The notes under the pieces: generated by a model
Seen by the model: the letters and a program-made list of their open reading frames with translations, nothing else
Database searches by the model: none
Told to the model about the DNA's origin: nothing
Shown here: positions 18,632-21,032 of the stretch, piece by piece
Position numbering within the stretch: the stretch's first letter is position 1
Layout: every line of letters starts with the position of its first letter
Source: a virus
Virus record (IMG/VR): IMGVR_UViG_3300048586_000142
Span: 1 to 21,224 of that record
DNA length: 21,224 bases
Strand: one strand, 5' to 3'
Translations under genes and position numbers: made by a program

Positions 18632-18859
18632 CTAGATCACGTCTACCAGATTTAGCCGCTTCTCGATGCGGTCCATGCGCTGGTCCAGCCGATCGATGCG
18701 GCGATTGATGCCGCCGATGCCTTCCTCAACATGGGACATGCGTACCTTGAGGTCATGGACGTCAGCGCGAAGCAAGTCGAGCTTCTCGTCCATACTAAGG
18801 AGCTGCGCCCGAAAGTGACGCAGATGCTCGAGGATCAGGTTTTCCGTATCGTCTGTCAT
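18632..18859 (-). CDS. Coiled-coil protein, unknown function
   Basis: This encodes 75 residues; the ATG at 18859 overlaps the HTH gene's stop as ATGA, so the two are coupled. Residues ~5-75 are one long helix with heptads and charged positions (ILEHLRHFRAQLLSMDEKLD; GGINRRIDRLDQRMDRIEKR). Similar short helical proteins are frequent in alphaproteobacterial genomes, often next to small HTH regulators. No enzymatic motif is visible. It may form an oligomer or act as a partner of the HTH protein, which is inference. Confidence 0.75.
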   Translation of the reverse strand: MTDDTENLILEHLRHFRAQLLSMDEKLDLLRADVHDLKVRMSHVEEGIGGINRRIDRLDQRMDRIEKRLNLVDVI

Positions 18860-19083
18860 TTGCGCCAACGCTCAGGCCACTCTTCCTCAGGAAGTTTCTC
18901 CAAAAGCTCTGCGAATGCAACAAGCTCTGGCGTAACCGGGCGTTTCCCAGCCCAGATCCGGTGCAATTGCGACGGATGCCGATCTAGTGCGCGCGCCAAC
19001 CTCGCCGTTGTGCCGTGTCCGCCGAGAAGGGCTTCAAAACGAGCTTCAAGCGCCGCGCCATCTGCTTTTGATGCATGTGCCAT
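18856..19083 (-). CDS. Small HTH transcriptional regulator
   Basis: This encodes 75 residues from the ATG at 19083; an in-frame ATG at 19092 would lie inside the proposed -10. Residues ~27-57 (TTARLARALDRHPSQLHRIW, then KRPVTPELVAFAELLEKL) form a Cro/XRE-type helix-turn-helix, and the C-terminus (PEEEWPERWRK) is Trp/charge-rich. There is no Shine-Dalgarno sequence, and the promoter geometry suggests a leaderless message. Two palindromes lie immediately upstream and are likely targets for it. It may be the switch regulator of the phage, although no partner repressor is visible. Confidence 0.8.
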   Translation of the reverse strand: MAHASKADGAALEARFEALLGGHGTTARLARALDRHPSQLHRIWAGKRPVTPELVAFAELLEKLPEEEWPERWRK

Positions 19084-19089
19084 ACGCAG

Positions 19090-19119
19090 CATCTAGTGCC
19101 ATTGGCACCGCGCAGTCAA
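19090..19119 (-). promoter_or_regulatory. Promoter of the HTH gene with palindrome in the spacer
   Basis: TTGACT (-35, 19114-19119) and TAGATG (-10, 19090-19095) are 18 bases apart; six bases follow before the ATG at 19083. The spacer holds the inverted repeat GTGCC-ATT-GGCAC (19096-19108 on the plus strand), well placed for a repressor. Confidence 0.5.
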
Positions 19120-19271: not shown

Positions 19272-19442
19272 TCATTTCTTCGCCCTCCCCGCATGTCGCT
19301 CAAGCGCGGCTCTGATCTCGTCCGACAGTGACCAGTTGTTGGCCTTCGCCATGGCGTCGAGTTTCGCCCGGAGTGTCGGGGTGATGCGGAGTGCGATCCG
19401 CTCGTAGGCGCCAAGCGCCTCGTCCTTCTTGGGTCTAGCCAT
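19272..19442 (-). CDS. Ribbon-helix-helix (Arc/CopG-like) regulator
   Basis: This encodes 56 residues from the ATG at 19442; the longer upstream reading would contain the promoter. MARPKKDEALGAYERIALRI gives the beta-strand, followed by TPTLRAKLDAMAKANNWSLS and DEIRAALERHAG as the two helices, the standard length and pattern of an Arc/MetJ/CopG fold. Such proteins bind palindromic operators as dimers of dimers. Phage P22 uses RHH repressors (Arc, Mnt) in its immunity region. Its own promoter overlaps a perfect 12-base palindrome, consistent with autoregulation. Confidence 0.82.
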   Translation of the reverse strand: MARPKKDEALGAYERIALRITPTLRAKLDAMAKANNWSLSDEIRAALERHAGRAKK

Positions 19443-19448
19443 GCTCAG

Positions 19449-19477
19449 GTTGTAGCAGGCTGTTGCTATAATGTCAA
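19449..19477 (-). promoter_or_regulatory. Promoter of the RHH gene
   Basis: TTGACA (-35, 19472-19477) and TACAAC (-10, 19449-19454) have ideal 17-base spacing. Six bases separate the -10 from the ATG at 19442, the same distance as at the HTH gene. No ribosome site is present. The -35 overlaps the TCAAACGTTTGA palindrome. Confidence 0.65.
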
Positions 19478-19482
19478 ACGTT
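19468..19482. repeat. Copy 1 of a 15-base direct repeat containing an RHH operator candidate
   Basis: ATAATGTCAAACGTT here recurs at 19529-19543. In this copy it continues into the perfect palindrome TCAAACGTTTGA (19474-19485). It overlaps the -35 of the RHH gene. Confidence 0.75.
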
Positions 19483-19528: not shown

Positions 19529-19543
19529 ATAATGTCAAACGTT
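19529..19543. repeat. Copy 2 of the 15-base direct repeat
   Basis: It is identical to 19468-19482 and lies 61 bases away, but the palindrome is incomplete (TCAAACGTTATG). It sits just upstream of a TACAAT (19553-19558) that could serve as -10 for the plus-strand gene, so one regulator could act on both divergent genes. Confidence 0.7.
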
Positions 19544-19559
19544 ATGGCATTCTACAATT

Positions 19560-19593
19560 AAGGCCGGAAGCGGTTGCAGCCGCCCCGGCCCTT
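19560..19593. promoter_or_regulatory. Imperfect GC-rich stem-loop between divergent genes
   Basis: AAGGCCGG...GCGG pairs with CCGC...CCGGCCCTT around a 6-base loop, with one bulge and one small internal loop. It has no T-tract downstream on the plus strand, so it is not a standard terminator. Confidence 0.5.
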
Positions 19594-19631
19594 GTGAAGA
19601 CCCATCCATCGCAAAATGAAAGGCACGTCAC

Positions 19632-20552
19632 ATGACCACGAATAGCACTCCCGGCACTGGCCTGGCAATCGCCGCCGGCACCTTTGCCTCCATCGGCGCC
19701 ATGGCAATCCTGCTCTGGGAGCCGATCCACTCAGGGAACTGGACGCTCGATCACGCGCTGGTTCCTCTCGTCGTCGGGCTCACGATCGCAGCGGGTCATC
19801 TCGCAAAGGTCGCGGGCTTCCGTAAGTTTGGCGCAGCGCTCGGCTTCTCGATCGCCTTCCTGCTCGGGACTGCGTTCACGCTCTACTCGTCGATCGGTCG
19901 GCAGGCTACGACCTCGGAAGCGCAAGCTCTCTCGGTTGCAGAGGCCAACAAGCTCTACGAGGACGCGGCACGGATGAAGGGCGAAGCCGAAGGCACCGTA
20001 AAGGATCTTCGCGCCAAGGCCGTCCGGGAATGCTCGAGCGGCAAAGGCAAGCGCTGCGACGGCATCACCTACTCGATCACCACGTACGAGATGGCGATCA
20101 AGGGGTACGAGCAGACGATGCGGGATCATCCCCGCCAGTCGACCGCCACCAAGGCCAGCCAAGCGGCTGAGGTTGCGGCGCTCGCCGGGTTCTCGAAGGA
20201 AGCTTCTGAAGCCTTCTTCAAGATCTTCGAGCGGTTCGCCCTGGCCCTGATGTTCGAATGGACGGCGATCGTAGCGTTTGGCTACGGCTTCCCCCACCGG
20301 GCCATCACTGAGACTGCCCCTGGCAAGATCAGCGATGCAGAAATTGAAGAGTTCAAGAAAGCAACGTCGAACGACACTGAGCCCCTGCCGCCCACAGAAA
20401 TGATCGAGCCCAAGAAGGCGGGCGCTGAAGTAATCATCTGGGCCCAAGAGTTCGAGAAGCGTTGGGGCAGAAAGCCCCGTCTGGACGAGGCCGAAGCTGC
20501 CTTTAAGGAAGTCGCTCGAACCACAATCTACCGCCGCCTCAAAGCGGCATAA
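19632..20552 (+). CDS. Membrane protein with predicted periplasmic domain and C-terminal HTH-like segment
   Basis: This encodes 306 residues; AAAGG lies eight bases before the ATG. Hydrophobic segments at ~11-29, ~42-58, ~67-87 and ~200-221 look like membrane helices. The Lys/Arg-rich loop after the second (KVAGFRKFG) should be cytoplasmic, which puts residues ~88-199 in the periplasm, with Cys134 and Cys142 able to form a disulfide and a helical region (~96-131). The C-terminal ~35 residues (KRWGRKPRLDEAEAAFKEVA, then RTTIYRRLKAA) resemble a DNA-binding HTH on the cytoplasmic side. This could be a membrane-bound regulator or superinfection/lysis-control protein. Family not recognised; the topology is my prediction. 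Confidence 0.75.
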   Translation: MTTNSTPGTGLAIAAGTFASIGAMAILLWEPIHSGNWTLDHALVPLVVGLTIAAGHLAKVAGFRKFGAALGFSIAFLLGTAFTLYSSIGRQATTSEAQALSVAEANKLYEDAARMKGEAEGTVKDLRAKAVRECSSGKGKRCDGITYSITTYEMAIKGYEQTMRDHPRQSTATKASQAAEVAALAGFSKEASEAFFKIFERFALALMFEWTAIVAFGYGFPHRAITETAPGKISDAEIEEFKKATSNDTEPLPPTEMIEPKKAGAEVIIWAQEFEKRWGRKPRLDEAEAAFKEVARTTIYRRLKAA

Positions 20553-21032
20553 CTAGGCGGGGGCTTCGGCCCCCGTTTTTGCGAGCCCGTGGAACATCCA
20601 ATAGTGCAGAGGTTTATCTGCGAACCCGATGATCGTCAGCAGTGTGCACACCCTGTGAGGGCCTTCTTGCTCTTGTATGCTAATTAGCTCGTGCTGCTCC
20701 AATTGACGCAACCAGTACCGCACAGTCTTTATCGACCAGTTCCAACGCTCCGCCAGCCACCTTCGCGACACGACAACATCGCCAGGCTGCACGCTGTGCA
20801 CAACGCCGAGATTGTTCACGTTGGCTTGATTGGTATAGGCCGCCGCTACGAGATCTACCCACGCCTCAAACCTTGAGAACGACCAGCGAGTCCCATCCTT
20901 AGGTTTGACATGCTGGCCCCTCGCTATGGGCGAAACGGCTTTCGGGCTCCATTTCACTTCCAGCCGCTTGCTAGGTCCGTGCCTATGGCATTCTCTCTTT
21001 GCGAGGATCGGCTTCGTCTCACGCAATTCCAT
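20553..21032 (-). CDS. Winged-helix protein, possible phage replication organiser
   Basis: This encodes 159 residues from ATG 21032, which has a strong GGAGGGG site; an upstream TTG start is less likely. Residues ~1-50 are basic and probably disordered. Residues ~52-67 (FSRFEAWVDLVAAAYT) precede a winged helix at ~84-120 (GDVVVSRRWLAERWNWSIKT, VRYWLRQLEQHELISIQ), the pattern of N-terminal domains of phage replisome-organiser proteins. A usual C-terminal loader-binding part is absent, so it could be a single-domain form or another regulator. The last nine codons contain the terminator of the convergent gene. Confidence 0.6.
   Translation of the reverse strand: MELRETKPILAKRECHRHGPSKRLEVKWSPKAVSPIARGQHVKPKDGTRWSFSRFEAWVDLVAAAYTNQANVNNLGVVHSVQPGDVVVSRRWLAERWNWSIKTVRYWLRQLEQHELISIQEQEGPHRVCTLLTIIGFADKPLHYWMFHGLAKTGAEAPA
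20558..20580 (+). terminator. Rho-independent terminator of the membrane-protein gene
   Basis: CGGGGGC-TTCG-GCCCCCG followed by TTTTT is a 7-bp GC stem with a UUCG tetraloop and a U-tract. It starts six bases after the plus-strand stop codon at 20550-20552. It lies inside the 3' end of the convergent minus-strand gene. Confidence 0.92.

Follow-up and report, generated by a model that had tools for sequence, protein, structure and literature searches.

The Membrane-HTH Gene and Its Genomic Setting

Does a phage carry a regulator that is anchored in the membrane and controls genes through a cytoplasmic DNA-binding tail? The question is raised by one gene of an IMG/VR fragment of 21,224 bases (the whole analyzed stretch, hereafter the window), in which the terminase, portal, and major head protein genes all lie on the minus strand. 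The window terminase is 79% identical to a copy in a Pseudolabrys MAG and 66% identical to a Bradyrhizobium copy, and the host therefore probably belongs to the Hyphomicrobiales. The gene in question (the membrane-HTH gene) is a lone plus-strand gene flanked by two minus-strand genes, one for an RHH protein and one for a DnaD-like helicase loader, the latter ending against the terminator of the membrane-HTH gene:

19632–20552, plus strand: coding sequence with ATG start for a predicted membrane-tethered HTH protein of 306 amino acids (open reading frame; 79%-identical copy in L002)
20558–20580, plus strand: intrinsic terminator 3' of the membrane-HTH gene, CGGGGGC-TTCG-GCCCCCG-TTTTT (GC hairpin and T5; read from the sequence)
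19272–19442, minus strand: divergent RHH (CopG/FitA-like) gene, 56 amino acids from the ATG at 19442 (open reading frame, profile match)

Comparison with the L002 copy showed that the reading frame is a real coding sequence, with a dN/dS of about 0.13 across the N-module. The terminator was absent from the automated terminator scan, perhaps because G–T pairs consume its T run. For the RHH gene, the ATG at 19442 is probably the start, and the TTG at 19538 given in the open reading frame listing is probably wrong.

Copies of the gene were found in phages (the window, L002, L169, and L201–L203), and many lie in prophages or islands. Their neighbors, named by eye, included terminase, NusG-like or replication genes and, in islands, integrases or tRNA-like sequences. 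In the related phage G001 (43 kb), the gene is oriented against the early operon; replication/NusG-like genes lie on one side of it and HigBA-like/late genes on the other, and two separate Xre/CI-like genes, forming a pair, are located about 6 kb from it. This arrangement indicates a moron position and not that of the main switch. The gene was accordingly rejected as the main repressor of the phage, and it is not the obvious prophage repressor. A HigB/HigA-like toxin-antitoxin pair was observed just past the divergent HTH gene in a related phage (L124, 5678–6273, minus strand). The original prediction had described the gene as an independently controlled module with its own terminator, and its location on the strand opposite to its neighbors, the GC hairpin with T5, a leader RNA of its own (see below), and the variable genomic setting all support this description.

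Predicted Architecture of the Membrane Protein

The protein was divided into the following parts:

19659–19883, plus strand: TM1 (residues 10–28), TM2 (42–60), Lys/Arg loop, and TM3 (66–84), from hydropathy and the family alignment
19884–20231, plus strand: predicted extracytoplasmic helical hairpin (residues 85–200) with invariant R90, from alignment, AlphaFold2, and hydropathy
20031–20057, plus strand: Cys134 to Cys142, predicted hairpin tip, from alignment and AlphaFold2
20235–20291, plus strand: TM4 (residues 202–220) with nearly invariant E209, from hydropathy and alignment
20424–20546, plus strand: predicted cytoplasmic C-terminal HTH (residues 265–305), LexA-like, type A tail, from AlphaFold2 and fold and profile matches

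Four hydrophobic segments and a Lys/Arg-rich loop had been taken to give a single consistent topology, and this was recovered with the four TM segments listed above. Across 37 homologues, the K/R density per residue was 0.31 in loop 2–3 versus 0.07 in loop 1–2. Since this bias is accompanied by an even number of TM segments, an N-in/C-in arrangement fits, with the DNA-binding domain predicted to be cytoplasmic. A C-terminus outside the membrane had been named in advance as a result that would speak against the proposal; positive-inside bias and hydropathy placed it inside.

The only cysteines of the window protein, C134 and C142, both lie in the extracytoplasmic segment of about 115 residues, in agreement with the two-Cys periplasmic domain proposed originally. 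This segment contained exactly two cysteines in all 42 homologues, spaced by 3–16 residues (usually 8 or 4). Three TM segments followed by at least one later TM segment were found in 37 of 42 full homologues by a simple hydropathy cut-off, and a 12-sequence alignment showed R90 and C142 to be invariant and E209 of TM4 to be nearly so. Full-length AlphaFold2 modeling with five sequences was of low confidence (mean pLDDT 60); at that confidence, the model contained a long helical hairpin formed by residues 66–135 and 139–165, whose tip bears C134 and C142, as well as three helices at residues 265–305. The two cysteines probably form a disulfide.

The C-Terminal Tail of the Window Protein

When the last 53 residues were modeled alone, AlphaFold2 gave a pLDDT of about 86–93 across most of the helical part, in an HTH arrangement. 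A predicted structure lacking an HTH fold at the C-terminus had been named in advance as the other result that would speak against the proposal; residues 265–305 are instead predicted to form a three-helix HTH, which fold and profile searches put closest to the DNA-binding domain of LexA. A Foldseek search of the window tail against PDB returned LexA 3k2z at the top (probability 0.99, TM 0.60, E 0.26), the lower ranks being mainly sigma factors (sigma region 4) and further LexA entries; the E-values, of which 0.26 was the best, are weak because the domain is short. An independent profile, built from 17 type-A tails and run against PDB sequences, placed LexA 3k2z second (E 0.033), outranked by the RecQ4 helicase fragment 2kmu. 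The tail and the LexA DNA-binding domain (PF01726; 3k2z) thus share the same predicted three-helix fold, and type-A tails have in common with LexA a pattern like G-x-x-P-(S/T)-x-x-E-(I/V). PF01726 itself was matched, weakly, by one of the 17 type-A tails, and no Pfam HTH family reached the cut-off with the window tail alone. Unlike LexA, the window protein lacks an S24 peptidase domain and is attached to the membrane; with no S24 match and a membrane protein in place of a soluble one, it does not belong with the CI/LexA-type phage repressors. DUF6881 was rejected as its family, the Pfam match having an E-value of only 0.17. Altogether, the models and matches make it very likely that the window gene codes for a membrane-tethered DNA-binding protein.

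A Family in Mobile Elements of Hyphomicrobiales

The window protein had no significant match in Pfam, NCBIfam, PHROGs, or PADLOC, and the family, absent from these collections, was previously unnamed. Searches by tblastn with the window protein gave zero matches in cultured phages (even at E 10) or in plasmids; L092 and L096 were likewise without matches in phages, and L096 also in plasmids. Scans with peptide patterns turned up a single close relative among viruses and, in genomes, no match, and the gene was absent from other phages with a related terminase. A two-sequence profile (the window protein and its 79% relative L002) revealed homologues in Hyphomicrobiales genomes. A broad profile of 12 sequences (A2) proved too dilute, and a profile of the N-module (A3) was effective, with 33 positives among 103 genomes of one Hyphomicrobiales family. 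Judged from these sequences, a common design recurs across the family: a conserved Cys pair, exchanged DNA-binding tails, and, frequently, a small divergent regulator.

The phage of L002 also codes for a second protein in which three TM segments, a coiled coil with a Cys pair (GGCGPKC), and a further TM segment follow one another (P0001, L002 9371–10363, minus strand); a distant relative of it (36%) is present in Caudoviricetes sp. MW202785. P0001 showed no detectable sequence homology to the membrane-HTH protein of that phage and was rejected as a member.

Exchange of Tails on a Conserved Membrane Module

Three types of HTH tail were distinguished, namely LexA-like (type A, the type of the window), MarR/Crp-like, and a third winged type, with single exceptions in L197, which carries a D5-like tail (Pox_D5 Pfam match), and in L194 (see below). 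Comparison of 37 tails with Pfam gave matches to many HTH families; composition-matched shuffles of the same tails gave no HTH match and hit one unrelated family once. The maximum-likelihood tree of the N-module requires at least 12 switches of tail type, for example between L116 and L119, a fully supported pair. In pairwise comparisons, the window protein and L124 (the L002 copy) share 87% identity in the N-module and 59% in the tail, whereas the window and L199 share 26% and 73%, respectively. We take this repeated exchange as the strongest argument for the tail being a functional DNA-binding unit and for a change of target sites beneath a retained sensor. Counting against a regulator, the tail of L194 (7843–8703, plus strand) is not an HTH but is Lys/Ala/Pro-rich (KKRAARKKPAAKKPAAPRPR) and histone-like.

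Tail swapping would also fit a protein that tethers the DNA of its own element to the membrane, binding it non-catalytically for replication, partition, or transfer without control of transcription. Membrane placement of DNA has precedents in phi29 p16.7 and Streptomyces SpdB2; p16.7 and the actinobacterial SpdB2/DUF2637 proteins combine a TM anchor with a DNA-binding domain and are carried on plasmids or phages, and a multi-TM anchor with a DNA-binding tail is also the build of the present family. The DnaD-like helicase-loader gene adjoining the window copy, the D5-like tail of L197, and the basic Lys/Ala-rich tail of L194, which could bind DNA without sequence choice, point in the same direction. 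However, a tether has no need of a conserved Cys-pair hairpin outside the membrane, and we know of no such hairpin in SpdB2/DUF2637 or p16.7. Copies occur also in genomic islands with no replication genes in view, a divergent repressor-like gene is often paired with the membrane-HTH gene, and DUF2637 was not among the Pfam matches up to E 1, which sets the family apart from SpdB-like proteins. We regard a pure tether as unlikely, and regulation of transcription as the preferred reading.

The Divergent Partner and Operator-Like Sites

A small divergent gene of RHH or Xre/YdaS type was found within about 320 bp upstream of the membrane-HTH gene in about 16 of 42 copies; at many loci the partner was missing or of another kind. 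The elements concerned in the window are:

18856–19092, minus strand: Xre-type HTH gene with the C-terminal end ELLEKLPEEEWPERWRK; in L192 and L199, the divergent partner is a gene of similar kind
19468–19482: operator-like direct repeat, copy 1, the 15-mer ATAATGTCAAACGTT (exact repeat)
19529–19543: operator-like direct repeat, copy 2, identical to copy 1 (exact repeat)

Both 15-mers lie inside the 189-bp gap between the RHH ATG at 19442 and the membrane-HTH gene, so that the operator copies originally described as shared with the facing RHH gene are present as an exact repeat. In other loci, the gaps contained palindromes that went with the partner: TGCAACnGTTGCA in L176 and L187, which have one partner type, and CGCAATnATTGCG in L113, L171, and L172, which have another, both being nearly absent from the rest of 630 kb. 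The intergenic palindromes were consequently rejected as sites of the HTH tail; they track the partner, and the sites differ between the window and L199 despite their common tail. By the same token, the sequence comparison suggests that the window repeats go with the small partner and not with the membrane protein, and control of the divergent promoters most likely lies with the partner.

Beside this family, small Xre-type HTH proteins with the C-terminal pattern ELLExLPxxxWPERW are found repeatedly (window 18856–19092, minus strand; L192; L199). A candidate promoter of the RHH gene, TTGACA-17-TACAAC (window 19443–19480, minus strand), ends a few bases before the ATG, and the transcript may thus be leaderless; its TTGACA −35 box, found by eye and not listed by the promoter scan, lies within the repeated operator sequence.

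The partners match antitoxin-type RHH and Xre families, which could mean that the locus is a two-gene toxin-antitoxin-like pair, with a membrane protein harmful if over-made and a partner acting as antitoxin-like repressor. A leader RNA that may restrain translation would suit such a toxin. Nevertheless, the pair is divergent and not co-transcribed, the partner is absent or different in many loci, and the HTH tail would have no evident role in a pore toxin, which leaves this explanation very improbable.

A Structured Leader RNA

Directly 5' of the ATG, most copies carry a two-storey GC hairpin and a short second hairpin that often covers the ribosome-binding site. The window has a second variant of this leader:

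19562–19590, plus strand: leader hairpin I, with a 6-bp lower stem, an AA/C internal loop, and a 5-bp upper stem (second variant)
19593–19634, plus strand: remainder of the leader as far as the ATG; a second hairpin, predicted less strongly, surrounds the Shine-Dalgarno-like GAAAGG (19618–19623)

The hairpin over 19593–19634 is less certain in the window than in other homologues. Since MAFFT misaligned the complete set of leaders, a covariance model was built from a consistent subset of 13, and it gave 36 matches in 36 loci with E-values below 1e-6, including loci outside the training set. Changes on both sides were seen in 15 of 15 pairs. The covariation score was 0.473 versus 0.161 ± 0.015 in shuffles (reached in 0 of 500) and at most 0.108 in slid alignments, the alignment being structure-fitted, which favors the score. 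The covariance model had no match in the window leader, whose variant was recognized by its fold, a shape common to the window, L124, L196, L199, L200, L114, L183, and L182. Rfam gave no match to the window leader region, and the leader RNA appears to be new.

A genome-wide scan found leader matches in 39 of the 103 genomes. Among 38 leader copies away from profile matches, 20 stand before TM-hairpin-TM-tail proteins missed by the profile, a few before truncated versions, and the others before different short open reading frames; the tie between leader and architecture is thus strong and not exclusive. Shorter variants stand before unrelated short open reading frames in L221, L227, L230 (with a ParA-like neighbor), L240, L241, L243, L246, and L252, and the leader may be a more general feature of mobile elements. 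In L226, the leader is followed about 110 nt downstream by a 99-amino-acid protein with an HTH-like end and no TM segments. A tiny single-TM open reading frame lies between the leader and the membrane-HTH gene in L113 (9411–9617), L173, L174, and L244; in L113 and L173 it overlaps the start of that gene by 4 nt and is probably translationally coupled to it.

Comparison with Known Membrane-Bound Nucleic Acid-Binding Proteins

ToxR, CadC, and their relatives constitute the TTRs (survey, PMC10269533), which like the window protein join an extracytoplasmic sensor-like part, a TM anchor, and a cytoplasmic DNA-binding domain in one polypeptide. CadC also contains a periplasmic disulfide (PMC3096576). 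ToxR and CadC have an N-terminal OmpR-type winged helix and a single TM segment, whereas the window protein has a C-terminal HTH and four TM segments (3+1), and no OmpR-type domain was among the listed profile matches of the family. Unlike these TTRs, the family is borne by mobile elements, swaps its tail between HTH types, and is preceded by a leader RNA with a defined fold; words beginning with "phage" do not occur in the survey text (PMC10269533). With a TM anchor and a predicted cytoplasmic DNA-binding domain in one polypeptide, the window protein is predicted to work like a TTR in the broad definition (PMC10269533), without being a member of the ToxR/CadC family.

A membrane anchor and a nucleic acid-binding domain are likewise combined in AbiP and in the S. 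aureus prophage protein PdpSau (PMC10127798). These resemble the window protein as membrane proteins with a cytoplasmic nucleic acid-binding part, PdpSau being prophage-encoded, and differ from it in having a single N-terminal TM segment and an OB-fold instead of 3+1 TM segments and an HTH; pdpSau, moreover, sits in the lysis module (PMC10127798). A role in superinfection exclusion or abortive infection, in which a membrane sensor of incoming phage would use the DNA-binding tail to seize or silence the invading DNA, would account for the moron-like placement on the opposite strand with its own terminator, for the patchy presence (33 of 103 genomes), and for the fast diversification of the tails, as expected in an arms race. 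Yet PADLOC was without a match, the architecture is unlike that of AbiP and PdpSau, and regular pairing with transcription regulators is atypical for such proteins. Exclusion is on these grounds quite unlikely.

Proposed Function

On balance, we lean toward the gene coding for a transmembrane transcription regulator of a mobile element, here a phage. Mobile elements probably use the family for gene regulation exerted directly from the membrane, and the regulator plausibly senses the envelope or redox state. In the proposed mechanism, the three N-terminal TM helices and TM4 would anchor the Cys-tipped hairpin outside the membrane, where a change (in thiol/disulfide state, through envelope damage, or by binding of a ligand or protein) would be transmitted to TM4 with its conserved glutamate and from there to the cytoplasmic HTH, which would bind DNA at target genes to the benefit of the element. 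As the tail is a replaceable module, we propose that the one sensor is directed to different DNA sites in different elements. Expression would be restrained at two levels: the small RHH or Xre-type protein encoded divergently would act as a repressor at the intergenic region common to both genes, and a further restraint would come from the leader RNA, whose structure covers the ribosome-binding site in many copies.

A wider reading, which we advance tentatively and consider doubtful, is that a modular one-component sensor is common to the mobile elements of Hyphomicrobiales. It would be made of an extracytoplasmic disulfide hairpin, freely exchanged DNA-binding heads, and a dedicated riboregulatory leader, and through it phages and islands would monitor redox or envelope state and influence genes from their membrane position. 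If so, this would be, to our knowledge, the first membrane-bound family of phage transcription regulators to be described.

Few natural records of domain swapping are as clear as the repeated exchange of DNA-binding tails beneath a single sensor. The leader with its covarying stems, present ahead of many members, including ones with unrecognizable N-modules, gives a new means of tracing all members of the class. Regulators of phages and islands tend to be pictured as soluble repressors that answer DNA damage or small peptides. If the proposal is true, a widespread family whose DNA-binding domain is governed from a membrane sensor would let mobile elements monitor the envelope directly, and the question of whether prophages sense the periplasm would become testable.
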